DNA from: Pseudomonadota bacterium | Lineage (GTDB): Bacteria > Pseudomonadota > Gammaproteobacteria > Xanthomonadales > Xanthomonadaceae | Direction of reading: 5' to 3' | NCBI GenBank assembly: GCA_021821195.1 | Contig: JAKACT010000005.1 | Coordinates: 62,001-126,000, forward strand | DNA length: 64,000 bases | Shown here: piece after piece, positions 20,084 to 36,976 of the stretch | Numbering within the stretch: position 1 is the stretch's first letter | Layout of the letters: the number at the start of each line of letters is the position of its first letter | Notes under the pieces: generated by a model | Database searches by the model: none | The model's input: only the letters and a program-made list of their open reading frames with translations | What the model was told of the DNA's origin: nothing | Position numbers and translations under genes: made by a program

Positions 20084-22120
20084 TCAATTATCCGCGAAGA
20101 ACGCCTGCACGGCCTTCACTTCGCGGGTGATGGGCAGCGGCGGCAGCGACTCAAGGAAGGTGCGGCCATAGGATTTGCCGAGCAGGCGCGGGTCGCACAG
20201 CACCAACACGCCGCGGTCGGTCTCGGTGCGGATCAACCGGCCGGCGCCCTGCTTGAGCGCGATCACCGCCTGCGGCAGCTGTTCGTCGCGGAACGGATTG
20301 CCGCCGGCGCGGCGGATCGCGTCCAGCCGCGCCTCGAACACGGGGTCGTCCGGCGCGGCGAACGGCAGTTTGTCGATGACCACCACCGAGAGCGCATCGC
20401 CGGCCACGTCCACCCCTTCGCGGAAGCTGGCGGTGCCCAGCAACACGCCGTTGCCGGATTCGCGGAAGCGCTGCAGCAGCACGTGGCGCGGCTCCGTGCC
20501 CTGCACGAACAGCGGCCAGGGGCCGCCCTGCAGCGCCTCGGCGGCCTCGCGCAGCGCGCGATGCGAGGCGAACAGCAGGAACGCGCGACCGCCGGAGGCC
20601 TCCAGCACCGGCCGCAGCGCATCTAGCATGGCTGCACCGAAATCGCGCGAGGCTGGCTCCGGCAATCCCTTCGGCAGGTAGCACAGCGCCTGCCGGTCCC
20701 AGTCGAACGGGCTGGGTTCAAGCAGCTCGCGGGCGTGTTCGACGCCAAGGCGCTGGGCGACGTGGTCGAAGCGCCCGGCCACCGCCAGCGTCGCCGAAGT
20801 GAACACCCAAGCCGCATTCGACGCCTCGCGATGGGCGCGCAGCGGCGCCGCCACGTCCAGCGGGGTGCGCTGCAGGCGGAAGCCGCGCGGGGTCAGCTCG
20901 TACCAGTGCACCGAGACCGAGTCGGGGGAAGGTGAAACGGGGTCAGGTTCACTTTCCGATGACGTTGGCTTGGCATCGCAAAAAACCGTCCCGGAAAGTG
21001 AACCTGACCCCGTTCCGCCCTCCTCGCCCAGCCAACGCTGCAGCCGGCCCAGCTGGTCCTGCGCGCGCACGTGGCAGGCATCGAAACCGGGCGCGGCCTG
21101 ACGCAACGGCGCCACCGCATCGCGCAGCGCCGTCAGCGACTGCACCAGCGCGTGGAAGGCCGGCTCGATGTCCACTTCGTCCAGCGCCCGCCAGGCGGTG
21201 CCGCGCAGCGGCAGGTTATCCATCGCCGCACGCAGCGCGCGGGTAGCGGCTTCCAGCGCGCGCGCCGGTTCCTGCACCGCGGCCAGTGCACCCGGCACGT
21301 CCTTGCACTCGGACACCGCGTCGCGCGCCAGTTCCACCAGCGGGCGCGCGCCCAGTCCTTCGCCGAAGAACTGCGCAGCCAGCTCCGGCAGCTGGTGGGC
21401 CTCGTCGACGATGAACGCCTGCGCGCCCGGCAGGATCTCGCCGAAGCCTTCCTGCTTCAGGGCCAGGTCGGCCAGCAGCAGGTGGTGGTTGACCACCACC
21501 AGATCGGCCGCCTGCGCGCGCTGGCGCGCCTGCACCACGAAGCAGTCGCTCCAGAACGGACATTCGGTGCCCAGGCAGTTGTCGGCGGTGGAGGTCACCA
21601 GCGGCAGCAGCGGGCTGTCCTCCGCCAGCGATTCCAGCTCCGCCATGTCGCCGCTGCGGGTGCGCCCGCTCCATGCCACCACGCGCTGGAACTGGCTGAT
21701 CTGCTCGCGCGAGGTGAAGCGCGGCTCGCCCTTGGCCTGTTCCATCCGGTAGCGGCACAGATAGTTGGCGCGCCCCTTCAGCAGCGCGGTCTTCAGGCCG
21801 ATCCCGAGCGCGTCGCGCACCCGCGGCAAATCGCGCAGGTAGAGCTGGTCCTGCAGCGCGCGGGTGCCGGTGCTGACGATGGTCTTCATCCCCGACAGCA
21901 GCGCCGGCACCAGATAGGCGTAGGTCTTGCCGGTGCCGGTGCCGGCCTCGGCCAGCAGCACCTCGCGGCGCTCGAACGCATCCGCCACCGCCACCGCCAG
22001 CCGCTGCTGCGCCGGGCGCGGGCGGAAGCCGGGCAGTGCTTGCGCCAGCGCCGATCCTTCGCCCAGCGCGGCGCGCACGGCCCGACCCAGCCGCGAGTCG
22101 GTGGCCACCACCGGGCTCAC
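20084..22120 (-). CDS. DinG/YoaA-type ATP-dependent DNA helicase with in-frame palindromic insert
   Basis: 5'-3' superfamily 2 helicase of the XPD/DinG group, active in repair and replication-fork rescue. 678 residues. Motifs: Walker A in AEAGTGTGKTYAYL (about 57-66), DEAH box in FIVDEAHQLPE, and motif VI near QGAGRLIRTETDRG at the C-terminus. The four-Cys iron-sulfur site is visible as YLCRYRM plus NCLGTECPFWSDC. The start is GTG at 22120, overlapping the mrcB stop (GTGA). Residues about 370-395 are encoded by a palindromic element (20936-21014) that adds a hydrophilic Gly/Ser- and Ser/Glu/Pro-rich loop in frame. YoaA is the closer E. coli relative by length; DinG is the alternative. Confidence 0.92.
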   Translation of the reverse strand: MSPVVATDSRLGRAVRAALGEGSALAQALPGFRPRPAQQRLAVAVADAFERREVLLAEAGTGTGKTYAYLVPALLSGMKTIVSTGTRALQDQLYLRDLPRVRDALGIGLKTALLKGRANYLCRYRMEQAKGEPRFTSREQISQFQRVVAWSGRTRSGDMAELESLAEDSPLLPLVTSTADNCLGTECPFWSDCFVVQARQRAQAADLVVVNHHLLLADLALKQEGFGEILPGAQAFIVDEAHQLPELAAQFFGEGLGARPLVELARDAVSECKDVPGALAAVQEPARALEAATRALRAAMDNLPLRGTAWRALDEVDIEPAFHALVQSLTALRDAVAPLRQAAPGFDACHVRAQDQLGRLQRWLGEEGGTGSGSLSGTVFCDAKPTSSESEPDPVSPSPDSVSVHWYELTPRGFRLQRTPLDVAAPLRAHREASNAAWVFTSATLAVAGRFDHVAQRLGVEHARELLEPSPFDWDRQALCYLPKGLPEPASRDFGAAMLDALRPVLEASGGRAFLLFASHRALREAAEALQGGPWPLFVQGTEPRHVLLQRFRESGNGVLLGTASFREGVDVAGDALSVVVIDKLPFAAPDDPVFEARLDAIRRAGGNPFRDEQLPQAVIALKQGAGRLIRTETDRGVLVLCDPRLLGKSYGRTFLESLPPLPITREVKAVQAFFADN
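20936..21014. repeat. Palindromic element inserted in frame in the DinG-type helicase gene
   Basis: Two perfectly complementary 23-base arms, 20936-20958 and 20992-21014, sharing the core GGGGTCAGGTTCACTTTCC, flank a 33-base centre. Read on the helicase strand, the first arm gives TGSGSLS and the second gives ESEPDPV, with a variable spacer between. The reading frame is kept and no stop is introduced. Related copies lie in hrpA (34214-34265 and 35261-35347). The arms resemble termini that I associate with REP elements mobilised by REP-associated tyrosine transposases (RAYTs), but no such transposase is in the window. Confidence 0.85.
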
Positions 22121-24579
22121 TGCACCGGGCGCGGCGCCGGCGCGTCGGGGGGCGGCAGCTGCTTGGCCGGGTCGCCGCCGCCGAAGAAATCACGGATCGC
22201 CTGGCCGGCGCGCTCCAGCGGGTTCTGCGATCCGTCCGCGGGCGGCAGCGGGTTGCCGAATTCGTCCAGCTCCGGCGGCGGCACGTACGGGCAAGGCTGG
22301 TAGGGCGGCGCGTAGCCGGCCACAAACGGCAGATGGCGCGCACCGGGACAGTCGCCATCGGTGCTCTGCCCGTCCAGCACCCAGCGCCAGTCGACGCCTT
22401 CGCTGGACAGCCGCAGCGGCGCGCTGGGCAGGCGCGCGAACATGTCGGACCATACCCGCATGGCGCCGGTGGCGCCGTACAGGCCGGTGGACTGGTTCTG
22501 GTCGTTGCCCACCCAGGCCACCGCCAGATGGTCGCCGGTATAGCCGGCGAACCAGCTGTCGCGGCCGTCGTTGCTGGTGCCGGTCTTGCCGGCCGCGGAC
22601 AGCCGGCCGAGGCCGTCGCGCACCAGCGCATGGCCGGTGCCCGAGGTCACCGCGTACTGCAGCGCATTGCCGACCAGCCGCGCCGCCACCGCATCGCCCT
22701 TCTGCGCCGGCGGGGCCTCGCTGTCGTAGCGCTTGATGGTGCGCCCCTGCGGATCCAGCACCCCGCGCACCGCATGCAGCGGCTGGATCTCGCCACTGGA
22801 AGCGAGGAACTGGTACAGCTGCGCCATCGCGTACGGGCTCTGGTCGACGGCGCCGAGGATCAACGAAGGCTGCGCTTCGGATTCGATCCCGGCCAGGGTG
22901 CGGATCAGCGCCGCCAGCCGCTGCGGCTGCACCTCCATGCCCAGCCGCACCGTGGCCTGGTTGTAGCTCTGCGCCAGCGCGTCCATCAGGCGCACGTCGC
23001 CGTGGCTGCGGCCATCGGAATTGCCGGGCTTCCACGTGCGGCCGCGGCCAAGGCCGACGGTCACCGGGGCATCGCTGATGATGCTAGCCAGCGACCATTT
23101 ATCCGGCTGCGCCAACGCCAGCAGGTAGACGAAGGGCTTCAGCAGCGAGCCAACCGGGCGCCGCGCATCGACCGCGCGGTTGAAGCCGGGCTCGGTGAAT
23201 TCGCGGCTGCCCACCACCGCCAGCACGTCGCCGTTGTGGACGTCGGTCACCACCAGCCCGGCCTGCAGCGGCGGACGCCCCTTGGTGGATAGCGCCTTCA
23301 GCGTGCGCGCCACCGCGCCTTCGGCGTAGCCCTGCGCGGCGGGCGCCATGCCGGTCATCACCGACAGCCCGGCGCCGGACAACTTGTCGGCCGGGTAGTC
23401 GCGGGCCAGCTGCTTGCGCACCAGGTCCACGTAGGCAGGGAAACGATTGGCGACCAGGTTGCCGGCGTTGGCGGTCACGCCCAGTGGCGCTTTCATCGCG
23501 CGGTGGAATTCGGCGTCGTCGATCAGGCCGGTCTCGTGCATCTCGCCCAGCACGAAATTGCGGCGCTGCAGCGCGCGCTCCGGATTACGCCGCGGGTTGT
23601 ACCAGGACGGCCCCTTGACCATGCCGATCATCAGCGCGACCTGCTCGGACGACAGGTCCTTCAGCTCGCGCCCGAACCAGAATTCGGAAGCCGCCGCTAC
23701 CCCGCGGATGGCCTGCGCGCCGCGCTGGCCCAGGTCGACCTGGTTGAAATAGGCCTCGAGGATGGTGCGCTTGTCGTAGCGCGCCTCCAGCAGCAGCGCG
23801 AATAGGATTTCCTTGACCTTGCGGGTGTAGGTCTGTTCCTTGCCAATGCCGAGCAGGCCGCTGCGCGCCAGCTGCTGGGTCAGGGTGCTGGCGCCCTGGC
23901 GGGTGTCGCCGCCGGACGTCACGTTCACGAAGACCGCGCGCAGCATGCCGCTGAGGTCGATGCCGATGTGGTGGTTGAAGTCGCGGTCCTCGACCGCCTG
24001 CAACCCGGTGACCAGCAGCTCCGGCACCTCCTCGATCCGCACCAGCCGGCGCTCTTCCTGGTTTTGTCCGTACAGGGTGGCGATGCGGGCGGGATCGAGG
24101 CGGGCACTACGCAGGGCGCGCTTGGCCTGGACGTCGCGGATGGCCGCCACCCGGCCGCTGGAGAGGGTCACTTCCAGCACCGCCGGTGCCACCCGCCCGT
24201 CGACGTCGTTGTAGCCGCGGCTGGAAATGCGCCATTGCGCGCCGTTGCGGGCATAACTACCAGCGCGGCGGCCATCGCCATCGCGGTAGGAGGCGGCATC
24301 CAGCTCGGTTTTCAGGGTCTGGGCGTCCATCGCCAAGCCCTGTCGCAGCACCAACGGACGCGCGTACACGCGGGTCGGCACCTGCCAGCGCAGCTTGCCG
24401 AAGCGCTCGCCAACCTGGTGGTTCAGGTACAGCAAGTAGGGGATCAGGAATCCCAGCAGCAGCGCAGCCGCGGCCAGCCCCCAGGCCAGTAGCCGCCGGC
24501 GCCAGCCGGCGCCACCGCCCGCATCGCCACCATCGTCCTCTGCGTACAGTTCGTCTTCTTCGTCTTGGATGCGGGGCAT
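22117..24579 (-). CDS. mrcB: Penicillin-binding protein 1B (bifunctional transglycosylase/transpeptidase)
   Basis: Class A PBP that polymerises and cross-links peptidoglycan. 820 residues from ATG 24579 (MPRIQDEEDELY). Acidic cytoplasmic tail, membrane segment around 26-48, UB2H-like region, and a GT51 transglycosylase with catalytic Glu in QAVEDRDFNHHIGID and GASTLTQQLARS. The transpeptidase has SxxK in VGSLLKPF, SxN in SYNQ and the KTGTS box (AAGKTGTSNDGR). The C-terminal tail is Pro-rich. A TTG further upstream in frame is an unlikely start. The IS30 element sits about 95 bp upstream and may have altered its promoter. It overlaps the downstream helicase gene by 4 bp. Confidence 0.96.
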   Translation of the reverse strand: MPRIQDEEDELYAEDDGGDAGGGAGWRRRLLAWGLAAAALLLGFLIPYLLYLNHQVGERFGKLRWQVPTRVYARPLVLRQGLAMDAQTLKTELDAASYRDGDGRRAGSYARNGAQWRISSRGYNDVDGRVAPAVLEVTLSSGRVAAIRDVQAKRALRSARLDPARIATLYGQNQEERRLVRIEEVPELLVTGLQAVEDRDFNHHIGIDLSGMLRAVFVNVTSGGDTRQGASTLTQQLARSGLLGIGKEQTYTRKVKEILFALLLEARYDKRTILEAYFNQVDLGQRGAQAIRGVAAASEFWFGRELKDLSSEQVALMIGMVKGPSWYNPRRNPERALQRRNFVLGEMHETGLIDDAEFHRAMKAPLGVTANAGNLVANRFPAYVDLVRKQLARDYPADKLSGAGLSVMTGMAPAAQGYAEGAVARTLKALSTKGRPPLQAGLVVTDVHNGDVLAVVGSREFTEPGFNRAVDARRPVGSLLKPFVYLLALAQPDKWSLASIISDAPVTVGLGRGRTWKPGNSDGRSHGDVRLMDALAQSYNQATVRLGMEVQPQRLAALIRTLAGIESEAQPSLILGAVDQSPYAMAQLYQFLASSGEIQPLHAVRGVLDPQGRTIKRYDSEAPPAQKGDAVAARLVGNALQYAVTSGTGHALVRDGLGRLSAAGKTGTSNDGRDSWFAGYTGDHLAVAWVGNDQNQSTGLYGATGAMRVWSDMFARLPSAPLRLSSEGVDWRWVLDGQSTDGDCPGARHLPFVAGYAPPYQPCPYVPPPELDEFGNPLPPADGSQNPLERAGQAIRDFFGGGDPAKQLPPPDAPAPRPVQ

Positions 24580-24672
24580 TGGCTGGCGGTCGGCCGCTGG
24601 ATGCGACAATGGCGTTGCCCCGAGTCTAGCGCAGCCGCCCGTGCGGCCATGTGCGGGTTTCCCCGGGCGGTT

Positions 24673-25756
24673 TCAATATCCACGTGCAACATGATCAATG
24701 AATCGTTTCGGCGCTTGCTTCAGCGAGCCGCAGATGGTCGTTGTAGACCTCCAGCGGGGTGCGGAATTGGTGACGCTTTCGCGGTCGCGTGTTGAGGCTG
24801 AGGGCGATCTGGTTGAGCTCGTCCTGGCTGTAGACCGACAGGTCGGTGCCCTTGGGCAGGTACTGTCGAAGCAGGCCGTTGGTGTTCTCGTTGCTGCCGC
24901 GCTGCCATGGACTGTGCGGGTCGGCGAAGTACACCTGCACACCCGTGCGCAAGGTCAGCGCGTCGTGATAGCTCATCTCCTTGCCTTGGTCGTAGGTAAG
25001 TGTCTTGCGCAGGGCCTCAGGAATGCTCTTGAGGGCTTTGCCGAAACTCTCCAGTGCGTCGGCGGCGCTGGCGCTGCTCATCTTGGCCAACACCACGAAG
25101 CCGCTGGTGCGTTCGACCAACGTGCCGACGGAAGAGCGGTTGCCTGCCCCCTTGATGAGGTCGCCCTCCCAGTGGCCAGGAATCAGGCGATCCTCGACCT
25201 CCGGCGGCCGCACGTGGATGCTTTGCATATCGGGGATCTGGCCGCGCCGATCCGTCCCGCGCGTGCGCGGCTTGCGGGTGCTGCGGCCCTGGCGCAGGCA
25301 GCCGATCAGTTCCTTGCGCAGCTCGCCGCGAGGCACCAGGTACACCGCGGTGTAGATCGTTTCGTGGGACACCCGGTAACTCGCTGCGTCAGGAAAGGCT
25401 TTCGTCAGTATCCCGGCGATCTGTTCGGGCGACCAGCGCGCCCGCAACAGGGCCTGCACGGTTTCCCACAGCGCGGGGTCGGCCAGTTTTCGCGTCACAC
25501 GCGGCTTGCTCCGGCACTGCCGGCTGCGCTGATGCGCCACCTGCGCCTTGTAGCTCGCCGGATCGGCGATTGCCCGGCGGCACTCGCGACTGATCGTGCT
25601 TGCCGCGCGGCCCAGCGACCGGCCGATGGCACGCAGGCTGTCGCCCGCTTCCAGGCGCCGCTGAATCTCCACTCGCTCTTCCAGGGTCAGTTCGTTGTAC
25701 GTTCTCATCGCAACAGCCTATGTCAGAATCGGCAAGGTGTTGCACGTGGAGTTTGA
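24673..25756. mobile_element. IS30-family insertion sequence
   Basis: A complete element of about 1.08 kb holding one intact transposase gene. Its ends are inverted: TCCACGTGCAACA at 24679-24691 and its complement at 25738-25750, extendable to 19 bases with two mismatches if the flanking TCAA/TTGA is included. No clear short target duplication is visible next to either end. It lies between divergent mrcB and the glycosyltransferase gene, in what should be a promoter region. The intact ORF suggests recent arrival. Confidence 0.9.
24695..25708 (-). CDS. IS30-family transposase
   Basis: DDE transposase of 337 residues. N-terminal helix-turn-helix region (MRTYNELTLEERVEIQRRLE, LRAIGRSLGRAASTISREC), typical of IS30, followed by the RNase H-like catalytic core: first Asp in PGHWEGDLIKG, second Asp in LTYDQGKEMSYH, and the Glu in SPWQRGSNENTNGLLRQYLP. 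Length and motifs agree with active IS30 members and no frameshift is seen. It starts at ATG 25708, about 40 bases inside the right end. Confidence 0.97.
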   Translation of the reverse strand: MRTYNELTLEERVEIQRRLEAGDSLRAIGRSLGRAASTISRECRRAIADPASYKAQVAHQRSRQCRSKPRVTRKLADPALWETVQALLRARWSPEQIAGILTKAFPDAASYRVSHETIYTAVYLVPRGELRKELIGCLRQGRSTRKPRTRGTDRRGQIPDMQSIHVRPPEVEDRLIPGHWEGDLIKGAGNRSSVGTLVERTSGFVVLAKMSSASAADALESFGKALKSIPEALRKTLTYDQGKEMSYHDALTLRTGVQVYFADPHSPWQRGSNENTNGLLRQYLPKGTDLSVYSQDELNQIALSLNTRPRKRHQFRTPLEVYNDHLRLAEASAETIH

Positions 25757-25790
25757 GACGGCCCCGATTCTTGTGCAGGAGTCCAGCCGC

Positions 25791-27881
25791 ATGCCCGTCC
25801 CCGTCGAAGCGCGCTTCTGGATCCTGCGCGCGCTTGGCCTGTGGCGACGCGGCTGGGCCAGCCTGCGCACGCGCGGACTGGGCGCCACCTGGCGCCGGCT
25901 AGCGCTGCAGTTCCGTCGCGCGCCGGCCAGCGCCGCCGCGCTGTACTTGCCGCCGGCGGCGCCGTTCGCGCCGTTCGCGCTGCCAACCGCGGGAACACCG
26001 CGGGCCAGCATCGTGATCCCGGTGTACGGCGCGTTCGCGCACACGCTGGCCTGCCTGCGCGCGATCGCCACGCATCCGCCGCTTGCTCCATTCGAGGTGG
26101 TCGTGGTGGACGACGCCTCGCCCGATGATTCGCTGGAAAGGCTGCGCGCCATCGGCGGCCTGCGCGTGCACGCGCGGCCGGTCAACGGCGGCTTCATCGC
26201 CGCCTGCAACGACGGCGCGGCGCTGGCGCGGGGCGAATACCTGGTGTTCCTGAACAACGACACCGTGCCGCAACCGGGCTGGCTGGACGCGCTGCTTGCC
26301 ACCTTCGACACGGTGGCGGACGCCGGGCTGGTGGGCGCCAGGCTGGTCTATCCGGACGGCCGCCTGCAGGAAGCCGGTGGGGTGGTGTTCGCCGACGGCA
26401 GCGGCTGGAACTACGGCCGCCATGACGATCCCGGCGGCTGCCGCTACGGCTACCTGCGCGACGCCGACTACCTCAGCGGGGCGGCCATCGCGATCCCGCG
26501 CGCGCTGTTCCAGCGGCTGGGCGGCTTCGATGCGCGCTATGCGCCGGCCTATTACGAAGACACCGACCTTGCCTTCGCGGTGCGCGCCGCGGGCCTGCGC
26601 ACGCTGTACCAGCCGGCGGCGACGGTGGTCCACGACGAAGGCACGAGCTCCGGCACCGACACCGCCAGCGGCCCGAAGGCGGCGCAGGTGCGCAACCAGC
26701 AGGTCTTCGCCGACAAATGGCGCGACGCGCTGCGAGGCCAGCTGCCGGCCGGCACCGAACCGACACCCGCGTTGCTGCATCGCGGCCAGAGGCAGGTGCT
26801 GGTCATCGACGCGCTCACCCCGCAGCCGGACCGCGACTCCGGCTCGCTGCGGCTGGTGGAACTGATGCGCCTGCTGATCGAGGAAGGCGCGCACGTGGTG
26901 TTCCTGCCCGCCATCGGCAAGCCGGACGGCGCCTACACCCGCGCACTGCAGGCGCTGGGCGTCGAGTGCTGGCATGCGCCCGAAGCGGCGCGACTGCCGG
27001 CTTGGCTGCGCGAGCACGGGCCGCGTTTCCATGCGGCGATGGTCAGCCGCCACTACGTCGCCCGCGAATGCTTCCCGCTGCTGCGCCGGCACGCGCCGCA
27101 GGCGCGGCTGCTGTTCGACACCGTCGACCTGCACTACCTGCGCGAACGCCGCGCCGCCGAACTGACCGGCGACGCCGCTGCCCTGCGCGCCGCCAACCGC
27201 ACCCGCGCGCTGGAGCTGGCGCTGGTCCGGGAGGCCGATGCCAGCTTCGTGGTCAGCGCGGTGGAACGGGCGCTGCTGGCGCAGGACGCGCCCGGCGCGC
27301 GCGTCGAGGTCCTGTCCAACCTGCACCGGCCGGCACCGCCCGGCCCCGGCTTCGCCAGCCGGCGCGACCTCCTGTTCGTCGGCGGCTTCCGCCACCCGCC
27401 GAACGTGGATGCGGTGCAATGGTTCGTCGAAGCGGTGTTCCCGCAGCTACGCGCCGCGCGGCCGGACATCGCCTTCCACTGCATCGGTGGCGACGTGCCC
27501 GAGGCGATCGCGCGGCTGGGCGACATCGACGGCGTGCACATCCACGGCCATGTCCCGGACCTACAGCCCTGGCTGGACGGCTGCCGCATCTCGGTGGCGC
27601 CGCTGCGGTTCGGCGCCGGCGTCAAGGGCAAGGTGAACCAGGCGATGGCGCACGGCCTGCCAGTGGTCGCCACCGGCTGCGCGGTGGAAGGCATGCACCT
27701 ACGCGAGGGCGAAGACGTGCTGGTGGCCGACGACGCCGGGGCATTCGCGCAGGCGCTGCTACGGCTATACGACGACGAAGCACTGTGGGGGCGCCTTGCC
27801 ACGCGTGGCCGCGCCAACGTGGCCCGGCATTTTTCCGTGGACGCCGCGCGCGCGGTGGTGCGGGCGCTGTTCCTGGATTGA
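25791..27881 (+). CDS. Two-domain glycosyltransferase (GT2 + GT4-like)
   Basis: About 696 residues from ATG 25791. The N-terminal GT-A domain of family 2 shows SIVIPVYGAFAHTLACLRAI, VVVDDASPDDS and the metal-binding FLNNDTVPQPGW, then YEDTDLAFAVR; the second half is a GT-B domain of the GT4/GT1 type ending in ISVAPLRFGAGVKGKVNQAM with a late Glu (AVEGMHLREGED). Such fusions usually build surface polysaccharide or glycosylate surface structures, often O-antigen or pili; the acceptor here is unknown. The IS30 right end lies about 40 bp upstream, so the original promoter, or a longer N-terminus, could have been displaced. No other polysaccharide genes are adjacent. Confidence 0.85.
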   Translation: MPVPVEARFWILRALGLWRRGWASLRTRGLGATWRRLALQFRRAPASAAALYLPPAAPFAPFALPTAGTPRASIVIPVYGAFAHTLACLRAIATHPPLAPFEVVVVDDASPDDSLERLRAIGGLRVHARPVNGGFIAACNDGAALARGEYLVFLNNDTVPQPGWLDALLATFDTVADAGLVGARLVYPDGRLQEAGGVVFADGSGWNYGRHDDPGGCRYGYLRDADYLSGAAIAIPRALFQRLGGFDARYAPAYYEDTDLAFAVRAAGLRTLYQPAATVVHDEGTSSGTDTASGPKAAQVRNQQVFADKWRDALRGQLPAGTEPTPALLHRGQRQVLVIDALTPQPDRDSGSLRLVELMRLLIEEGAHVVFLPAIGKPDGAYTRALQALGVECWHAPEAARLPAWLREHGPRFHAAMVSRHYVARECFPLLRRHAPQARLLFDTVDLHYLRERRAAELTGDAAALRAANRTRALELALVREADASFVVSAVERALLAQDAPGARVEVLSNLHRPAPPGPGFASRRDLLFVGGFRHPPNVDAVQWFVEAVFPQLRAARPDIAFHCIGGDVPEAIARLGDIDGVHIHGHVPDLQPWLDGCRISVAPLRFGAGVKGKVNQAMAHGLPVVATGCAVEGMHLREGEDVLVADDAGAFAQALLRLYDDEALWGRLATRGRANVARHFSVDAARAVVRALFLD

Positions 27882-27923
27882 GGCAGGCCCAGCGGCCGGC
27901 GTCGCAAAGCAACCGTCGCGCTG

Positions 27924-29432
27924 TCAGCGCAGCTTCTCCAACCGCGCCGCGAATCCATCCAGCCCCGGCGCTTGCGGATCGAGGGCGCGCGCCTGCTCCA
28001 GCGCGCGCCGCGCGTCGGCGGTGCGACCAGCCTCGAGGCGCTCGCTGCCGACCGCGATCCAGCGCTGCGCCAGCCGCCGCCGTGCGGTCGCAACGCCGTC
28101 GTCGGACGGCGCCAGCTGCCGCCAGGCATCCAGGCAGACCAGCGCGCGGCCGAGGTTGTTGTCGCGCAGGGCATCGGCATTGCATTCGCGTGCGGCCGCT
28201 AGCAGCGCCGTCGAGGCCCGCAGCACGCGCGGATCGCGCGGGGCCAGCGCACGCGCCTCGCGCAACCTGTCCCAGGCGCTGTCGCCGGGAGGCGTCAGCC
28301 AGTCGCCGCGGGCGCGGGCGCGCTCCATCTGCTCCAATAGATGGGCAACGCGCGCGCGCTGCCGCGGGCTTGTACTGGTGCGGACGGGGCTCGGCTCGCC
28401 TTGCTGGGCCTGCCGCCACTGCCGCTGCGCCTGCTGCAGGCGCGCGGCGTCCACGCCCGCGGCCCTAGCCAGTTCCAACAGGCGCGCGGCCCTGGCCGCG
28501 GGCGCAGCGGCAGCCGCGCGCAGCAGCGCATTGGTCAATGGCGCAGTGCAGGCCTCCGGCAACGGCCCGGCTTGCAGCTGGCGCAGCTCGCCGCAGGCCT
28601 GCGCCGCCGCTTCCAACCGGCCACGCGCCAGCAGCTGGCGGATGCGCTGGCCGCGCGCTTCCAGCGCTCGCGCCAGACTGGCGTACAGCGGCGGCAGCGC
28701 GGCATGGCCGGGATCGAAACTTTCGGCGCGATGCAGCAGTTCCGCCGCGGGCAGCAGCTCGCCGCGCGCCAGCATTCCCACTGCCGGCTTCAACAAATCC
28801 TCCAGCGCGTCCTCCCGGCCTTCCAGCGCCGGCTGGCTGCGCGGTCGTGCCTGCAGCACCTGCTGGTACAGCGGCAGTGCGGCGTCGGGCCCATCGTCCA
28901 GGTGGCCAGCCGCCTGCGCGGCTTGCGCGCGCGCCAGCAGCGCGTCGATGCCGACCGCTTGCGCCTGCGTCGCCTGCAAGCTCGCGGCCAGCGCATCGAC
29001 CCGCGCCTTGGGCGCCTGCAACTCGCGCGCCATCTGCAGCGCGGCGTGCGCCTGCACGGCGTCGCCCGCGCTGGCGCTGGCTTGCGCCCGGGCCAACGCC
29101 GCCTGCGCCACCCGCGCCAGGCCGTCGCGCGCCTCCAGCTGGTCCGGCTGCAGCGCCAGCGCCGCCTCGAACAGTTCGCGTGCGCCGTCGCCATCCGCAT
29201 CGGTGAGTCGGCCGGCCTGCAGCGCGACCTCCGCCCGCTGGCGCAGCGCGTCGTAGCGCGGATCCGGCCACAGCCAGCGGCCCAGCGCATCGCGATACGC
29301 GAGCCCGGCAAGCAGTCCCAGCAGCAGTACCGCGGCGCCTGCGACGGCGCCAATGCGCGCCGGCCGGGGCAACGCCTGCCAGCGCGCCCGCACTGCTGCG
29401 CGTCGCGCCGGCACGGAGGCGAAGCGCTTCAT
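27924..29432 (-). CDS. Membrane-anchored TPR-like helical repeat protein coupled to relA
   Basis: 502 residues from ATG 29432 (MKRFASVPARR). One membrane segment near 32-52 (GAVAGAAVLLLGLLAGLAY) follows a basic N-terminus, so the rest should be periplasmic (N-in). The remainder is Ala/Leu/Arg-rich helix pairs resembling tetratricopeptide repeats, for example ARELFEAALALQPDQLEARDG and the closing ARRALEQARALDPQAPGL. No catalytic motif is recognised. Its start overlaps the relA stop by 4 bp (ATGA), so translation is coupled to relA. A scaffold or cell-envelope role is possible; its link to the stringent response is not established. Confidence 0.8.
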   Translation of the reverse strand: MKRFASVPARRAAVRARWQALPRPARIGAVAGAAVLLLGLLAGLAYRDALGRWLWPDPRYDALRQRAEVALQAGRLTDADGDGARELFEAALALQPDQLEARDGLARVAQAALARAQASASAGDAVQAHAALQMARELQAPKARVDALAASLQATQAQAVGIDALLARAQAAQAAGHLDDGPDAALPLYQQVLQARPRSQPALEGREDALEDLLKPAVGMLARGELLPAAELLHRAESFDPGHAALPPLYASLARALEARGQRIRQLLARGRLEAAAQACGELRQLQAGPLPEACTAPLTNALLRAAAAAPAARAARLLELARAAGVDAARLQQAQRQWRQAQQGEPSPVRTSTSPRQRARVAHLLEQMERARARGDWLTPPGDSAWDRLREARALAPRDPRVLRASTALLAAARECNADALRDNNLGRALVCLDAWRQLAPSDDGVATARRRLAQRWIAVGSERLEAGRTADARRALEQARALDPQAPGLDGFAARLEKLR

Positions 29433-31591
29433 GCGCGGCGCGCGGATTCGATGCCGGGCAGCGACTCCAGCCGTGCCAGCAGCAGGCCCAACTGTTCGTA
29501 ATCGGACACCCTCGCCTGCAGCCGCACCCGTACCCGCCCGTTGCCACCGCGCAGCGGGTCGGTATGCAGGCCCAAGGCATGCACGCCGACCTGTGCCACC
29601 AGCGTGGTGATGTCCTTGAGCAGCCACTTGCGGTCCACCGCCTCGATGCGGATCGCCACGTCCTGGCCGCTGCGCCGCGTCCCCCACTCCACCGGCAGCA
29701 CCCGCGCCGGCTCCTTGGCGGCCAGGCGCAGGAACGCGGCGCAACCGGGACGATGCACGCTGACGCCGCGGGCGCGGGTGAGATAGCCGACGATGGCCTC
29801 GCCCGGCAGCGGCTGGCAGCAGCGCGCCACCTGCGCCAGCAGGTTGTCCACCCCCTGCACCGTAACCGCGCCTGCGCCGGGTGCCGCCGGCGCCACCGGC
29901 TTGGCCGGCAACGCGGGCAGCGCCGGTTCGGGTTCCTGCGCCGCCTTTTCCAACTCCAGCAGCGCGCGCCCGACCTGGTTGGGGCCAACGTCACCCAGCG
30001 CCACCAGCACCAGCAGGTCGTCTTCGGTCTGCGCGTTGAACCTGGCCAGCACCGGGGTGAGGTCGGCGTTCAACAGGCCCATCCGGCGCAGGTCGCGCTC
30101 CAGCAGCTCGCGGCCCTCCTTCAGGTTCTGGGCGCGGTCGAGCTTGTTGAACCAGGCCCGCACCTTGTCACGCGAGCGGCTGCTGGCCAGGAAGCCGGCG
30201 CTGGACTGCAGCCAGTCGCGGCGCGGCGCGGCCTCCTTGCCGGTGAGGATCTCGACCCGCTGGCCGGTCTTCAGCACCTGGGTCAGCGGCACGATCCGGC
30301 CATCCACCTTGGCGCCGCGGCAGCGGTGACCGACCATGCTGTGGACGGCGTAGGCGAAGTCGAGCACGGTGCCGCCCTGCGGCAGGTCGATCACTTCGCC
30401 CTTGGGCGTCAGCGCGTACACGCGGTCTTCGATCAGCTCGCTGTCGATGCCCTGCAGCGGCGCGGCTTCACCTTCGCCCGCCGCCTCGGCGGCCTGCTCC
30501 AGCAGCTTGCGCATCCACGCGATGCGCTTGTCCATCGCCGCGCCGCCGGCGCTGCTGCCTTCCTTGTAGCGCCAGTGCGCGGCCACACCGAGCTCGGACT
30601 GCGCATGCATCTCGCGGGTACGGATCTGCACCTCCACGGTCTTGCCCCCGGGGCCGATCACCGCGGTATGCAGCGAGCGGTAGCCATTGGGCTTGGGTCG
30701 GGCGATGTAGTCGTCGAATTCGCTGGGGATCGGCACCCACAGCGCATGGACCAGTCCCAGCACCGCGTAGCAGGTGGGAATGTCGTCCACCAGCACCCGC
30801 AGCGCGCGCAGGTCGTAGAGTTCCTCGATCGGCAGCGCCTTGCGCTGCATCTTCTTCCAGATGCTGTAGATGTGCTTGGGCCGGCCGGCCACGTCGGCTT
30901 CGATGCCGTGCGACGCCACCGCGTCGCGCAGCTGTGCGCGCACCGCCTCGATGTAGCGCTCGCGGCCGCTGCGGTTGTCGTCCAGCGACTGCGCGATGCG
31001 CAGGTAGTCCTCGGCCTGCAGCACGCGGAAGGCCAGGTCCTCCAGCTCCCACTTCAGCTGCCAGATGCCGAGCCGGTTGGCCAGCGGCGCGTGGATGTCG
31101 CGGGTCATCCGCGCCAGCGCCCGCTGCTCGTCGGCCGGCAGCCGCCACGCGGCGCGCATGCGCGAGAGCTGGCGGGCCAGCACGATGGGCACCACGCGCA
31201 GGTCGCGCACCAGCGCCAGCAGCAGCCGGCGCATGCCCTCGGGATTGCGGCCACCGCCGTGGCTGCGGTGCAGCGCCCACACCCGGCTGGCGGCGCGCTG
31301 ACCCTCCAGTAGCACGTGCAGGCGCTCCGGCACGTCCACTTTCGCCGCCGCGGCGAGCGCTTCGATATCGACCAGCGCATCCAGCAGGGTGGCGGCCAGC
31401 ACCTCGGCATCGGCGTTGAGCGAGACAAGGATCGACAGGGTGTCGGCCAGCACTTCCGGGCGGTCGCGCATCGGCGCGCCGGCCTCGGCATGCGTGCGCC
31501 AGCAGGCGGCCAGCGGCGCCGGCAGCGCATCCGCTGGCACGCGCGCCAACGCGTCTGTCCAAGTGATGGTGGCAATGGCGGGAACGGGCAT
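29429..31591 (-). CDS. relA: GTP pyrophosphokinase RelA
   Basis: Ribosome-associated (p)ppGpp synthetase. 720 residues: a pseudo-hydrolase domain at about 20-170, where the HD metal motif is lost (TLLDALVDIE in place of a His-Asp pair), the synthetase domain around 220-360 (RPKHIYSIWKKM, YDLRALRVLV), the EXDD motif as SEFDDYIARPKPNGYRS, a TGS domain (VYALTPKGEVIDLPQGGTVL), and zinc-finger and ACT regions at the C-terminus. The EXDD motif is what separates synthetase-only RelA from bifunctional SpoT, which has RXKD. The ATG at 31591 is chosen; a GTG seven codons upstream is possible. Confidence 0.96.
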   Translation of the reverse strand: MPVPAIATITWTDALARVPADALPAPLAACWRTHAEAGAPMRDRPEVLADTLSILVSLNADAEVLAATLLDALVDIEALAAAAKVDVPERLHVLLEGQRAASRVWALHRSHGGGRNPEGMRRLLLALVRDLRVVPIVLARQLSRMRAAWRLPADEQRALARMTRDIHAPLANRLGIWQLKWELEDLAFRVLQAEDYLRIAQSLDDNRSGRERYIEAVRAQLRDAVASHGIEADVAGRPKHIYSIWKKMQRKALPIEELYDLRALRVLVDDIPTCYAVLGLVHALWVPIPSEFDDYIARPKPNGYRSLHTAVIGPGGKTVEVQIRTREMHAQSELGVAAHWRYKEGSSAGGAAMDKRIAWMRKLLEQAAEAAGEGEAAPLQGIDSELIEDRVYALTPKGEVIDLPQGGTVLDFAYAVHSMVGHRCRGAKVDGRIVPLTQVLKTGQRVEILTGKEAAPRRDWLQSSAGFLASSRSRDKVRAWFNKLDRAQNLKEGRELLERDLRRMGLLNADLTPVLARFNAQTEDDLLVLVALGDVGPNQVGRALLELEKAAQEPEPALPALPAKPVAPAAPGAGAVTVQGVDNLLAQVARCCQPLPGEAIVGYLTRARGVSVHRPGCAAFLRLAAKEPARVLPVEWGTRRSGQDVAIRIEAVDRKWLLKDITTLVAQVGVHALGLHTDPLRGGNGRVRVRLQARVSDYEQLGLLLARLESLPGIESARRA

Positions 31592-31674
31592 GCGGATACG
31601 GTAGCGGGACACGATGACGGCGACCAGCGCCCGGAGTCGCTACACTCGGCGGATTCCGACTCCGGGAGCCTTCC

Positions 31675-32163
31675 ATGCTGCGTCTATCCCTGTTCCTCTG
31701 CGCGATCTTCCTGCTCCCGTTTGCCCCGGCCGCGGCGCAAGACGCCACGCCACCGATCGAACGGCAGATGTCGGCACAGGAGTTCAAGGCCGCAGGGCTG
31801 GACAAGCTGACCGCGGCGGAACTGGCCAGCCTTAACACGTGGCTGAAGCGCGCGGTGGCCACCGAATCCGGCAAGGCCGTCGCCGAGGTCCGGCGCGAGC
31901 AGGAGGCGGGGACCCGCGGATTCAAGACCGAGCGCAGCGAAGCGTTCGAAGCGCGACTGGTCGGCCATTTCGACGGCTTCAAGAAAGGGCTGGACTACAC
32001 CCTCGACAACGGCCAGGTCTGGCAGCAAGTCGATGCAACCGTGATGTACGGGGTCAAGTTGGATAACCCGAGCGTGCAACTCAAGCCCGGGGCATTCGGC
32101 GAGATCTGGTACATGCGCGTTGACGGCCGCGCCGTGAATGCCAAGGTCAAGCGCATCAAGTAA
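31675..32163 (+). CDS. Small secreted protein of unknown function
   Basis: 162 residues with a clear signal peptide (MLRLSLFLCAIFLLPFAPAA, cleavage near AAAQ-DA). The mature protein has an amphipathic helical first half (AQEFKAAGLDKLTAAELASL) and a beta-rich second half with HFDGFKKGLDYTLDNGQVWQ and [20 protein letters not shown], reminiscent of small periplasmic proteins common in Xanthomonadaceae but without a named domain that I recognise. Divergent from relA, with about 80 bp of shared upstream DNA. Its 3' end overlaps the hrpA stop by 8 bp, tail to tail. Confidence 0.8.
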   Translation: MLRLSLFLCAIFLLPFAPAAAQDATPPIERQMSAQEFKAAGLDKLTAAELASLNTWLKRAVATESGKAVAEVRREQEAGTRGFKTERSEAFEARLVGHFDGFKKGLDYTLDNGQVWQQVDATVMYGVKLDNPSVQLKPGAFGEIWYMRVDGRAVNAKVKRIK

Positions 32164-35100
32164 TTGGCGACAACAGGCGCAGTCGCGCGGCCAGTCGCTT
32201 CGGCGAGACGCCGCCCTTGGCGCCCAGTTCCTGCGCGAACAGCGACACGCGCAATTCCTCCAGCTCCCAGCGCAGGGCGTGGGCTTCCGGATCGGCAGGA
32301 TCGGCGGCGGCCAGCGCGGCGGTGAACGGCGCCAGTTCCAGCATGCGCTGCTGGTCGCGCACCGGGTCGCGCTGGGCACGCTCGGCGCGCAGCGACATCG
32401 CCTTCAGCCAGCGCGGATATTCGGCCAGAGCCGCAGCCGGGACGTCGCGCAGGAAGCCCGGCGCGGCCAGCGCATCCAGCTGCGCCTGCATGTCGTCGAG
32501 ATTGGCGCGCGCCCAGCCGATCAGCTTCGATTCCAGCTTCGCCCGCACTTCCGCCACCAGCCCGAGGATGGTTTCCGCCTGCCTGAGCCGCTGCATCGCC
32601 TCGCCGAACACCGCCTTGGCGATGGCCTCGCGGCGCTGCGCGAAGGTTTCGGCATCCCGCACGTCCAGCAGGCCGTCGGCGGTGAGCGCATCGAAGGCAC
32701 CGTCCAGCAGGTCGGCGCGCAGGCGGTCGGCATCCTTGAGCCCGTCGCGGCGCGGCGCGGCCGACTCGATGGCGGCATACAGCAGCGAGATCTTCGGCTG
32801 CACCGGCAGCTGCCGGCGCGCCTGCTTCAGCTTGTCGGCCAGCGCGATCGCCAGCAGCCGGCGCACGCCCTGCGGGTGCAGGCGCTCGGCCACCTCGCGC
32901 TGGGCATGCAGCGCCAGCGACACGGATTCGCCATCGTCCTGCAGGGCCGGATACGCCGGCACGCCGCCGGCACCGGGCACCGACACGGGGATCGGCGTGT
33001 CGGGGAACACGGTCAGGCCGGCCTGCGCCATGCCCTGCGCCGCGTGGCGGGCGAAGGCCTGCGCCGCGCGTTCACCGAAGCGGGTGCGCAGCCCGGCAAG
33101 ATCCCGCGATTCGGCCAGCACCGCCTTGCCATCCAGCAGGCGCAGGTTGGCGCGCAGGTGCGGCTCGATGGCGGCAGCGTCGAAATCCAGCGCGGAGACG
33201 TCCACGCCGGAGAGCTTCTTCAGGAACTTCGCCAGCGCGCCTTCGATGCTGTCCGCGTCCGGTTGCGCGAATGCTTCCGCGAAGGCGCGGGCGAAATCCG
33301 GCGCCGGCACGAAGTTGCGCCGCAACGCCTTCGGCAGCGACTTGATCAGCGCTGTCGCCTTGTCCTCCACGAAGCCCGGCGCCAGCCACGACAGCTTTGC
33401 TGCATCCAGCGCATTGAGCAGGTGCAGCGGCACCGCCACCGTCATGCCGTCATCGACCGCGCCCGGCTCGAAGCGGTACTGCACCGCCAGCCGCGCATCG
33501 CCCAGCGCGATGTAGGCCGGGAAGCGCGCGGCGTCGCTCTGGTCGGCCACCAGCAGGTCGTCGCGCGACCACTCCAGCGCGGCCTTTTCGTCCTTCGACA
33601 GTTTTCCGAACCACGCATCCAGCGCCTGCGCGTTGTGCACGTGCGCGGGCAGCCGGTCCAGGTACCAGCGCGCCTGCCAGTCCTCGTCCACCACCAGCCC
33701 GACCCGGCGCTGCTTGGCTTCCTCCTGCTGCGCCAGTTCCAGCGTGCGCAGGTTGCGCGCGAGGAAGGCACTGCGGGTGTTGATCTCGCCGGTCAACAGC
33801 GCTTCGCGCACGAAGATCGCGCGGCTCTCCTCGGGGAACAGCGCGCCGTAGTAAATGGGCCGTTTCGGCGCCAGCACCAGCCCGAACAGGCTGATCTGCT
33901 CACTGCCCAGCACCCGCCCCTGCGCCCGCGACCAGTGCGGATCGTGGTGACGGCGCGCCAGCAGGTGCGGCAGCTCGGCGATGACCCAGTCCGGTTCGAT
34001 GGCGGCGTTGGTCAGTGCCCAGACCTTCTCGGTGTCCAGCAGGTTGGCCGACAGCACCCACGGCGGCGGCTTCGACGCCAGCTTCGAGCCGGGGAACAGC
34101 TGGAACTTGCGCCCGCGCGGGCCGTCATAGAGGCCCTTGTCGCCGCGATTGCCGATCTGCGTGGGCAGGCCGGCAATCAGTGCGCGGTGGAGTGCGGCGA
34201 AAGCGGAAGGGAGGGAAAGGGGGTCAGGTTCACTTTCCGCGGAAAGTGAACCTGACCCCCTTTCCGGCCACAGTTCTTCGCACTGCAGCTTCAGCTGCCG
34301 GTGCAGCTCCCACCATTCGCGCAGGCGCAGGAAGCCGAGGAAATTGCGATCGGCCCACTTGCGCAGCTGCGACTGGGTCATTGCCTCGTGCGCTTCGCGG
34401 TAGGCATGCCACAACTTGAGGATGCCGACGAATTCCGATTTCGCGTCGGCGAACTGCGCGTGCGCGGCGTCGGCGGCGGCGCGGGCATCGGCCGGGCGCT
34501 CGCGCGGGTCCTGGATGCCGAGGAAGCTGGCGATCACCAGCATCTCGCGCACCACCCCGTGCGCCTGCGCGGCCACCAGCATCCGCGCCAGCTTCACGTC
34601 CACCGGCAGCTTCGACATCGTCCTGCCGATGGCGGTGAGCTTGCGCTGGGCATCGACGGCACCCAGTTCGCCCAGCTGCTGCCAGCCGTCGGCGATCGCG
34701 CGCGGATCGGGCGGTTCCAGGAACGGGAAGTCCTCGATGCTCCCCAGACCCAGCGACAGCATCCGCAGGATCACCCCGGCCAGCGCGGCGCGACGGATCT
34801 CCGGGTCGGTGAATGCCGGCCGCGAGGCGAAGTCCGCCTCCGAATACAGGCGGAAACAGGTACCCGGCGCGATGCGCCCGCAGCGGCCGGCGCGCTGGTT
34901 GGCGCTGGCCTGCGAGACATCCTCGATGTGCAGGCGGTCCAGCTTCTGCCGCGGGCTGTAGCGCTTAACCCGGGCCACCCCGGGATCGACCACGTAGTGG
35001 ATGCGCGGGACGGTCAGCGAGGTTTCCGCCACGTTGGTGGCCAGCACGATCCGCCGCTGCGGGCCCGGGTGGAACACGCGGTCCTGGTCCTTCGCCGACA

Positions 35101-36151
35101 GCCGCGCATACAGCGGCAGCACCTCGGTATGGCGGTACTTGCGCTTCTCCAGCGCCTGGTGGGCGTCGCGGATCTCGCGCTCGCCGGGCAGGAAGATCAG
35201 GGTGTCGCCGATGCCCTTGTCGCGCTGGATCTCGTCGCAGGCCGCAACGATGCCGTCGAGGAGAGAAACGGGGTCAGAGTCACTTTTCGCCGAAACGCTT
35301 CTGCCTGCCGAGTGCGCGGGAGCGGAAAGTGACTCTGACCCCGTTTCTCCCAGCGGGCGATAGCGAATCTCCACCGGATACCCGCGCCCTTCCACGCCCA
35401 CCACCGGCGCGCCGCCGAAGTGTTCGGCAAAGCGGGCGGTGTCGATGGTGGCCGAGGTCACGATCAGCTTCAGGTCGGGCCGCTTCGGCAGCAGCTGCCT
35501 GAGGTAGCCCAGCAGGAAATCGATGTTGAGGCTGCGTTCGTGCGCCTCGTCGATGATCAGGGTGTCGTACTTCGACAGCCAGCGGTCGTTCTGGATTTCC
35601 GCCAGCAGGATGCCGTCGGTCATGAACTTGATCGCGGTCTGCTCGCTGACCGCATCGTTGAAGCGCACTTGGAACCCGACCGCGCCGCCCAAGGGCACCT
35701 GCAGCTCTTCGGCCACGCGCCGCGCCACCGAACGCGCGGCGATCCGGCGCGGCTGGGTGCAGCCGACCATGCCCGCCGCGCCGCGCCCGGCCAGCAGGCA
35801 CAGCTTGGGCAGCTGGGTGGTCTTGCCGCTGCCGGTTTCGCCGGCGATCACCACCACTTGGTGGCGGCGGATCAATGCCACGATCTCGTCGGCGTGCGCG
35901 GCGATCGGCAACGTCGCATCGACCGTGGCCGCGGGCAGCGCGGCGACACGGCGTTCACGTTCGGCGAGCGATGCTTGTAGCCTGTCCATGAACGCCTCGC
36001 GCAATCCTGCATCGCCCGGCTTGGCCTTCCAGCGCGCCAACAGCCCGAGCAGACGGCCGCGGTCGCGGGTCAGCGCGCCGTCGAGGTCACGGCCGGCCTG
36101 GCGCAGGGCGTCGGCGTGCGCCGTCTTGATGTTCGATTCGTCAGGCACCAT
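32156..36151 (-). CDS. hrpA: ATP-dependent RNA helicase HrpA with two in-frame palindromic inserts
   Basis: DEAH-box RNA helicase involved in mRNA processing and ribosome rescue. 1331 residues from ATG 36151 ([12 protein letters not shown]). Motif I in [21 protein letters not shown] box in [15 protein letters not shown] in IVTSATID, motif VI in [12 protein letters not shown], then the winged-helix/ratchet, OB fold and a long C-terminal DUF3418-type region. Residues about 269-297, between the two RecA-like domains, come from a palindromic element at 35261-35347. Residues about 630-646, after the ratchet, come from a second one at 34214-34265. Both keep the frame and add hydrophilic loops, ESLS/SDSDPVS and [14 protein letters not shown]. 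The frame stays open upstream of 36151, but that part overlaps the dps gene. Confidence 0.95.
34214..34265. repeat. Perfect 52-bp palindrome inside hrpA
   Basis: Left arm 34214-34239 is the exact reverse complement of right arm 34240-34265, with no loop. Each arm contains GGGGTCAGGTTCACTTTCC. On the hrpA strand it is read as [15 protein letters not shown], in the same frame as the other two copies. This is a minimal version of the element, with the central spacer gone. Confidence 0.9.
35261..35347. repeat. Second palindromic element inside hrpA, sequence variant
   Basis: Arms of 24 bases, 35261-35284 and 35324-35347, are perfectly complementary and carry GGGGTCAGAGTCACTTT in place of the GGTTCACTTT type found at the other two sites. 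The 39-base centre encodes a Ser/Ala/Arg-rich spacer. On the hrpA strand the arms read TGSESLS and KSDSDPVS. Frame and orientation of translation match the other copies. Confidence 0.88.
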
Positions 36152-36244
36152 GGTTCCAACAACGTGTTTGTCCACCTGCAGGCAGACGCAGGACCTGCGT
36201 ATTGTCACCGCAAGTTCCCCCCGAAGCGCGTAAAGGAGTTCGCC

Positions 36245-36781
36245 ATGCCCAAGAGCAAGACCCCCAGCAAGCCCGCGAAGGCCAAGGCCGCGGCCGCCAG
36301 CGCCCCCGGCATCGACATCGGCATCAGCGCCAAGGACCGCGCCGGCATCGCCGACGGGCTGTCGCACTTCCTCGCCGACAGCTACACGCTGTACCTCAAG
36401 ACCCACAACTTCCACTGGAACGTGACCGGGCCAATGTTCAACGCCTTGCACACCATGTTCGAGGCCCAGTACACCGAGCAGTGGACCGCGCTGGACGAGA
36501 TCGCCGAGCGCATCCGCGCGTTGGGCTTCAACGCCCCCGGCAGCTATTCCGAATTCGTCCGCCTGTCCTCGATCCGGGAAGAACCCGGCCTAACCGCCGC
36601 GCCGGCGTGGCACGACATGGTGCAGCAGCTGGTGGACGGCAACGAGGCGGTCTGCCGCACCGCCCGCAAGGTGCTGAAGGTGGCCGATGCCGGCGGCGAC
36701 GACCCGACCGCCGACCTGCTGACCCAGCGCCTGCAGACCCACGAGAAGTACGCGTGGATGCTGCGTTCGCTGCTGCAGTAA
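36245..36781 (+). CDS. dps: DNA starvation/stationary-phase protein Dps
   Basis: Dodecameric ferritin-like protein that stores iron, consumes H2O2 and coats DNA. 178 residues from ATG 36245, preceded by AAGGAG. The N-terminal 22 residues are a Lys/Ala/Pro tail ([19 protein letters not shown]), the kind used for DNA binding. The ferroxidase site shows in [26 protein letters not shown] and [12 protein letters not shown]. The length is typical with the tail. It is divergent from hrpA across 93 bp, which should hold its promoter. Confidence 0.95.
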
Positions 36782-36808: not shown

Positions 36809-36887
36809 GGTCGTCGGGCGGGCAGGGGCATCCCAACCAAGCGAGTATCGGGGAGCGACTTGGGAGGCCCCTGCCCGCCCGACGACC
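36809..36887. repeat. Large intergenic stem-loop between dps and recQ
   Basis: Arms 36809-36829 and 36867-36887 are perfectly complementary over 21 bases (starting GGTCGTCGGGCGGGCAGG). The 37-base loop has further pairing potential (CCCAA with TTGGG). It fills most of the 195-bp gap after dps. There is no T-run, so it is more like a repeated intergenic palindrome or an mRNA 3'-end stabiliser than a classical terminator. No gene is seen in the rest of the gap. Confidence 0.7.
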
Positions 36888-36976
36888 TCCATCGCAAGCA
36901 TGTAAAAGAGCAAAACCCGACAGGTTCCGGGACGGATGTCCGATGACGGCGTCGCCCCGCTTGCTACCCTTGCGGC

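Follow-up and report, generated by a model that had tools for sequence, protein, structure and literature searches.

A 64,000-nucleotide stretch of a Xanthomonadaceae genome (GenBank assembly GCA_021821195.1, contig JAKACT010000005.1, positions 62,001 to 126,000), termed the window below, contains three near-perfect palindromes of 79, 52 and 87 bp. One lies in a gene for a DinG/YoaA-type DNA helicase and two lie in the gene for the RNA helicase HrpA. These palindromes are likely to be miniature, transposase-less elements of the TIRYT/TIRtron group that sit in linkers, are read as disordered peptides, are changed by template switching and are overwritten. The genus of the window genome and of the 25 genus genomes compared with it appears to be Thermomonas; some of the compared genomes, which are given G numbers, are drafts.

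All three palindromes lie inside open genes, as an earlier note on this DNA had claimed; the open reading frames (ORFs) are on the minus strand. Element 1 is in the frame at 20084..22120, which matches Pfam Helicase_C_2 (8.1e-43) and DEAD (3.1e-9) and has a match in 25/25 genus genomes, and Elements 2 and 3 are in the frame at 32156..36451, which matches Pfam DEAD, Helicase_C, HA2, OB and DUF3418. Element 1 (20936..21014; palindromes are given without strand) consists of two perfect 23-nt arms (20936-20958 and 20992-21014) around a spacer, or loop, of 33 nt (20959..20991), and the related loops of G002 and G018 are inverted. Element 2 (34214..34265, hrpA site B) is 52 bp long and has no spacer, its arms (34214-34239 and 34240-34265) being paired at 26/26 nt. 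Element 3 (35263..35349, hrpA site A) has 28-nt arms (35263-35290 and 35322-35349), of which 27 nt are paired, around a spacer of 31 nt. The earlier note had given centres of 0, 33 and 39 bases; the first two agree with these measurements and the last does not. Translation of the minus-strand ORFs reads all three elements in one frame, giving GSGSLS...SEPDPVS for Element 1, GSGSLS/SEPDPLS for Element 2 and GSESLS...SDSDPVS for Element 3. With up to 3 mismatches allowed, GGGGTCAGNNTCACTTT has 7 matches in the window, the 6 exact ones being the three pairs, compared to a mean of 0.82 and a largest count of 4 in 100 dinucleotide shuffles. A third hrpA site, site C (32729..32770, minus strand), is empty in the window genome, while its linker is replaced by an element in G018 and G006 and holds decayed copies in G019 and G017.

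The arms of such palindromes are found again beside transposase genes. The family PF01797 has 24 matches in 18/25 genus genomes and 3 more in G047 and G056, which belong to another family of the order; 22 of these 27 loci were read, while L125, L138, L142, L025 and L027, which are divergent or partial, were not included. The GGGGTCAGGTTCACTTC arm, which represents the arm type of the window, is located at -101 in 8/8 transposases of its type, with a downstream arm that is intact or altered. A cognate GGGGTCAG arm is located upstream in 11/22 loci, and the rest have variants such as GGTGTCAG, CGGGTCAG or GGGGACGG. The remaining transposases go with GGTGTCAGGGACA, AGTCGACTT, AGTCATTGAT and GGGGACGG arms, many of which also occur downstream. 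In a tree of the 22 transposases, the seven arm types separate fully with 6 label changes, the minimum, compared to a mean of 13.1 when labels were shuffled (0/200 shuffles as low as 6). NHVH is present in 21/22 of these proteins and Y[IV][ED]LNP in 22/22, and a regular expression for the W motif matched only 3/22. The motifs given for subclass 2.1 in PMC6006769 are NHVH, W[EQ] and YIELNP, and by NHVH and Y[IV][ED]LNP the transposases fit this subclass. A phage family scan of two of them returned one weak transposase match.

In the window genome, which is 98.17% complete, there is one Y1_Tnp match, of GGGGACGG type, and what remains of GGTTCACTT-type ends flanks it on both sides. A GGTTCACTT-type transposase gene is present at the corresponding locus of G002, and at the window genome's locus one element seems to have been replaced by another. 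A Y1 gene linked to the same arms, which the earlier note had suggested looking for, is present in this relative, and the Y1 gene of the window genome itself is of the other type. At L008 (1465-2425), two GGGGACGG-type palindromes interrupt a transposase gene close to its 3′ end, and the part downstream of them looks like the leftover of an older transposase.

The superfamily pattern GGKGTCAGRKW, paired with its own inverse 14-74 nt away, occurs at 121 paired places in 18/25 genus genomes (one place uses the same right arm as another), including 12 in the window's own genome. The reversed pattern gave 0 places in the same 25 genomes, and in a sample of the family the pattern is present in 51/198 genomes. 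Places were classed as intragenic by a codon score of their flanks (threshold 0.10), from a codon model for which orthologues of hrpA and dinG were the training set. This yields 41 copies in frame, where both flanks are read in one coding frame, 25 on the same strand but not open, 54 others, taken as a class rather than one by one to lie between genes, and 1 at a contig edge. The earlier note had considered that copies might be only intergenic, which did not prove to be the case, and its likening of the palindromes to the in-frame elements of Rickettsia was borne out by in-frame copies in conserved genes. The 41 in-frame copies group into only 11 host sites: PriA (4 genomes), a ThiL-type protein (2), Lhr (3), DinG (6), an IspA-type protein (2), one G023 protein (1), HrpA sites A (6), B (3) and C (2), and two sites in a fused isobutyryl-CoA mutase (6 and 6). 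Copies in mutase, AIR-synthase-type and polyprenyl synthetase genes rule out targeting of helicases only.

Among the 25 same-strand copies that are not open, three continue the host frame as part of a C-terminal tail. For the remaining 22, the frame upstream stops between -45 and +22 nt from the core start. The palindrome itself supplies the stop of the upstream frame (...GSE*) in five of these 22 copies, at L174, L185, L242 (two) and L245. No clear case of gene disruption was found among these 25 copies, the 54 intergenic-class copies having been viewed together rather than singly. In G047 and G056, copies of 73-76 bp, mostly of AGTCACTTTCC type, form clusters within about 11-12 kb (L028 5605-17185 and L032 4719-15515), and 0 of these clustered copies scored as open inside a gene.

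The in-frame copies obey a frame rule. Core length modulo 3 and reading phase give nine combinations, six of which avoid a TGA in the second arm by arithmetic, and just two of them account for 41/41 in-frame copies. The combination (1,1), with 25 copies, encodes G-S-x-S...DP, and (2,2), with 16 copies, encodes G-Q...DP. This means that the claim of a single constant frame in the earlier note holds for the three elements of the window and is replaced by two combinations across the genus. Core lengths divisible by 3 are found in 0/41 in-frame copies compared to 38/80 others (Fisher 3.3e-9), or 22/52 once others with a stop in the first arm are removed (Fisher 2.4e-7), and these per-copy figures treat orthologues as independent, which they are not. 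A per-site estimate, with 11 sites and six open combinations taken as equally likely, comes by arithmetic to about 6e-6. Ten further in-frame copies, nine outside the genus and one in G005, follow the two-combination rule in 10/10 cases; they derive from 13 hand-picked loci, two of the nine are orthologous, and the G005 copy is one missed by the pattern. At three further places (L029 14642, L032 4719 and 4833) the same best frame is found on both flanks, but a stop codon closely precedes the element. Peptides encoded in the unused frames (GVRFTF, NLTPF) are more hydrophobic, and this hydrophobicity may be the cause of the rule.

Different families of palindrome occupy the same sites in different genomes. 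With filled mutase sites defined by an inverted-repeat score of at least 14, mutase site 1 is filled in 6/23 genomes with data by 4 arm types (AGTCGAC, AGTCAT, AGAACA and GGGACA), and all 17 unfilled linkers measure 138 nt. Mutase site 2 is filled in 9/23 genomes by five arm types, and 11/14 unfilled linkers measure 93 or 102 nt. At a score of at least 12, DinG is filled in 9/24 genomes, hrpA A in 6/23 and hrpA B in 10/23; the hrpA B copies include one GGGGACGG element and palindromes of two unrelated types. Across 80 named hrpA loci, which overlap with those of the genus, a score of at least 14 is reached in 6 loci at site A, 11 at site B and 2 at site C, and the filled loci include Arenimonas, Stenotrophomonas and Pseudoxanthomonas. 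At DinG, hrpA A, hrpA B and both mutase sites, every linker length extracted is a multiple of 3. Orthologues with the same residues and no palindrome, a further possibility raised by the earlier note, did not occur, as palindrome-less orthologues have other linkers. At hrpA site B, L068 and L069 carry two other, unrelated in-frame palindromic repeats, with peptides RHAREGGHP..DARFRGND and HPHPNPPPQAGEG.

The position of these sites in the host proteins agrees with the earlier proposal that the palindromes are placed in loops. In an AlphaFold2 model of HrpA residues 175-830 (42 sequences; mean predicted local distance difference test score, or pLDDT, 72.6), site A is coil with a block pLDDT of 30-54 and site B is coil with 48-68. 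The HrpA protein matches solved HrpA structures at about 1e-211 to 1e-212; the GTG start of its ORF at 36451 was assigned mechanically, and several orthologue matches begin near residue 100. The mutase, whose best match among solved structures is IcmF, has its sites at residues 153 and 425, between Pfam matches (B12-binding 19-122, MeaB 191-384). Pfam also supports PriA, Lhr, AIR-synthase-type and mutase hosts and, at the IspA-type site, a polyprenyl synthetase as the host of the copy in G005. The host names ThiL and IspA are those we take to apply, and the G023 host is presumably a membrane protein.

Resident copies also differ in ways that bear on their later history. Among 28 chosen cores from five sites, the spacer is common (p < 0.005) in 23/70 same-site pairs compared to 2/616 cross-site tests. 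At dinG, G000 and G024 carry a spacer that is the reverse complement of the one in G002 and G018; G000 and G002 are identical at 31/35 positions after reverse complementation, and 0/2000 shuffles were as good. At mutase site 2, G002 and G021 have a spacer in common with G024 (26/36), while both arms differ in concert (AG versus GT). At hrpA C, one spacer is common to four genomes, with near-perfect arms in two and decayed arms in two. Arm homogenisation and spacer inversion are given as two marks of template switching in PMC8604942, and template switching may have caused both the inverted dinG loop and the concerted arm difference. When selection to keep the loop open in either orientation was considered, 16 of 18 distinct spacers were open once inverted, whereas shuffling would lead one to expect 13.4. 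The outer end of the element is also seen as short tandem repeats, for example in 15-nt steps in G017 hrpA; they occur both in copies within genes and at the 5′ ends of transposases (L064 at hrpA A, L049 at hrpA B, L045, L209 and L248).

Arms that match Y1 terminal repeats, in-frame sites and template-switch marks therefore point to miniature TIRYT-type elements tolerated as disordered linkers. Each element would contain the terminal repeat of a Y1 (HUH) single-strand transposase twice, in opposite orientations, with a loop of either a few nt or about 33 nt between the two copies, and would have been transposed by a TIRYT protein. Copies landing in linkers or loops would persist if the host frame stayed open and both arms were read in hydrophilic frames, and would therefore become disordered linker peptides in working proteins, translated and perhaps neutral for the host. 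Resident copies would then be altered when the polymerase switches template from one arm to the other, so that the arms stay matched and the loop can invert, and would be overwritten by younger families.

It is improbable that the palindromes are instead classical repetitive extragenic palindromic (REP) or REPIN elements of the GTAG-RAYT type. In favor of this, they are inverted pairs with a variable spacer, Y1 genes are matched to the arms, and many cores of 70-76 nt come near the 71 bp that separate the 16-mer starts in REPINs of P. fluorescens (PMC3116915). The earlier note had likewise seen REP-like, RAYT-mobilised arms, and the arms are indeed common with a Y1 transposase; however, they have no GTAG tag and are not self-palindromic by eye, the group has subclass 2.1 motifs, and 4/4 proteins, some cut at the BLAST match, score 62-75 bits with NCBIfam RAYT NF047646, under its cut-off of 80. 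It is slightly less probable still that the host keeps the peptides for their function and that the palindrome is secondary. The same loops are used repeatedly, several of them in helicases, and PMC3733652 questions the view of REP-tagged repair genes as random targets, but unrelated peptides and many empty orthologues occur at the same site, hrpA C copies have decayed, and hosts also include mutase, AIR-synthase-type and polyprenyl synthetase genes.

There is very little chance that the spacers originate from captured host DNA that was given an arm at either end, an idea that own-site scoring leaves unsupported. Spacer length is similar to that of the missing host linker, and the own site was the best of six in 8/27 rows, four of them hrpA A. 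However, chance expectation is about 4 to 5/27, the rows hold orthologues and two repeats, the margins are 1-2 points, and the single high score (22, hrpA C) comes from decayed copies that the filter counted as empty. Homologous recombination of whole alleles between species, instead of repeated insertion, is a more serious candidate for the sharing of sites, although still an unlikely one. The hrpA A arms and spacer are common to G000 and G018, and G002 is empty though closer to G000 (HrpA identity 95% versus 93%). On the other side, unrelated arms and spacers are found at one site in different species, and the first copy of each would be unexplained by exchange. Allele exchange probably acts in addition to insertion.

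Several observations weigh against the palindromes being miniature TIRYT-type elements tolerated in linkers. No transposition event was seen among the compared genomes, and no cognate transposase for the window's arms was seen in the window genome assembly. No helix-turn-helix domain was matched in the transposases scanned (2 with Pfam and 4 with NCBIfam, most cut at the end of the BLAST match), and PMC6006769, in the part available, reports no REP-like sequences near subclass 2.1 genes. Intragenic status comes from the codon-score classifier rather than from annotation or expression, and many of the 41 in-frame copies are orthologous and hence not independent. Loop inversion is confined to dinG among the five sites compared, and low pLDDT in the HrpA model is also found elsewhere, for example in the C-terminal 30 residues. 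Finally, at hrpA C and mutase 1, the sites read closely, filled alleles are without about 10-13 host codons, unlike a simple insertion; the element therefore replaces linker, and the earlier expectation that orthologues would align gap-free around the insert fails.

Palindromes inside genes (Rickettsia palindromic elements, or RPEs, and intragenic REPs) and TIRtrons are already known, and palindromic repeats have also been named in Wolbachia. TIRtrons carry GGGGWSAS repeats (PMC3733652). As here, these are inverted (GGGGTCAG fits), accompany a subclass-2.1-like Y1 gene at a fixed distance, and also occur as dimers and clusters. Unlike here, the available part of that paper gives intragenic cases for GTAG and CGTC REPs rather than TIR repeats, many of them in replication and repair genes, and describes no multi-family shared site, frame rule or loop inversion. 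Its TIRYT/TIRtron families are probably subclass 2.1 of PMC6006769, and the elements fit this group better than classical GTAG REP/RAYT systems. The recB REPs of X. campestris and X. oryzae lie at about one site (PMC3733652), but they are tagged REP units, whereas the arms here are untagged and of up to five types per site. REPINs are similar inverted doublets with conserved ends, a variable spacer and a similar span, but are built of REPs and described in extragenic space (PMC3116915). RPEs are, by description, in-frame palindromes in conserved genes, translated and perhaps near-neutral, but they have another host and measure 105-146 bp (PMC2229807); R. conorii RPE-4 and RPE-6 have been grouped with CGTC REPs, and no dedicated transposase was found for those (PMC3733652). 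Arm homogenisation and spacer inversion in coding DNA also characterize template switching in yeast, at yeast inverted repeats rather than bacterial palindromes of mobile-element type (PMC8604942). In the literature consulted, mostly non-subscription papers, TIR-type palindromes in frame are not reported, nor is a site used by several arm families, a frame rule or loop inversion at such elements. What seems to be new is the joining of in-gene palindromes with TIRtrons, together with the sharing of sites, the two-frame rule and the inverted loop.

Two other inverted repeats occur in the window. One, at 36809-36887, is a different strong inverted repeat with 28-nt arms (96% paired) and a 23-nt loop, and sits in the gap that separates the HrpA gene from a plus-strand ORF beginning at 36943. 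The other, at 910-1031, has 35-nt arms (86% paired) and a 52-nt loop, and by sequence is outside the element family.

Each arm type has a matching clade of single-strand transposases in the same genus, and the entry and survival of palindromes inside genes therefore becomes testable here. The shared sites in HrpA, DinG, PriA, Lhr and the fused mutase serve as natural replicates for the tolerance of loops, and the restriction to two frames is a hint as to what a tolerated, translated parasite must encode. More tentatively, the occupied loops might be self-renewing cassette sites, in which a first palindrome is a lasting target that later TIRYT families overwrite, with loop inversion and a resetting of the arms through template switching during replication. 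If this were true, the linker peptides of a small set of core proteins (HrpA, DinG, PriA, Lhr and the fused mutase) would be reshuffled continually and might flip within populations.

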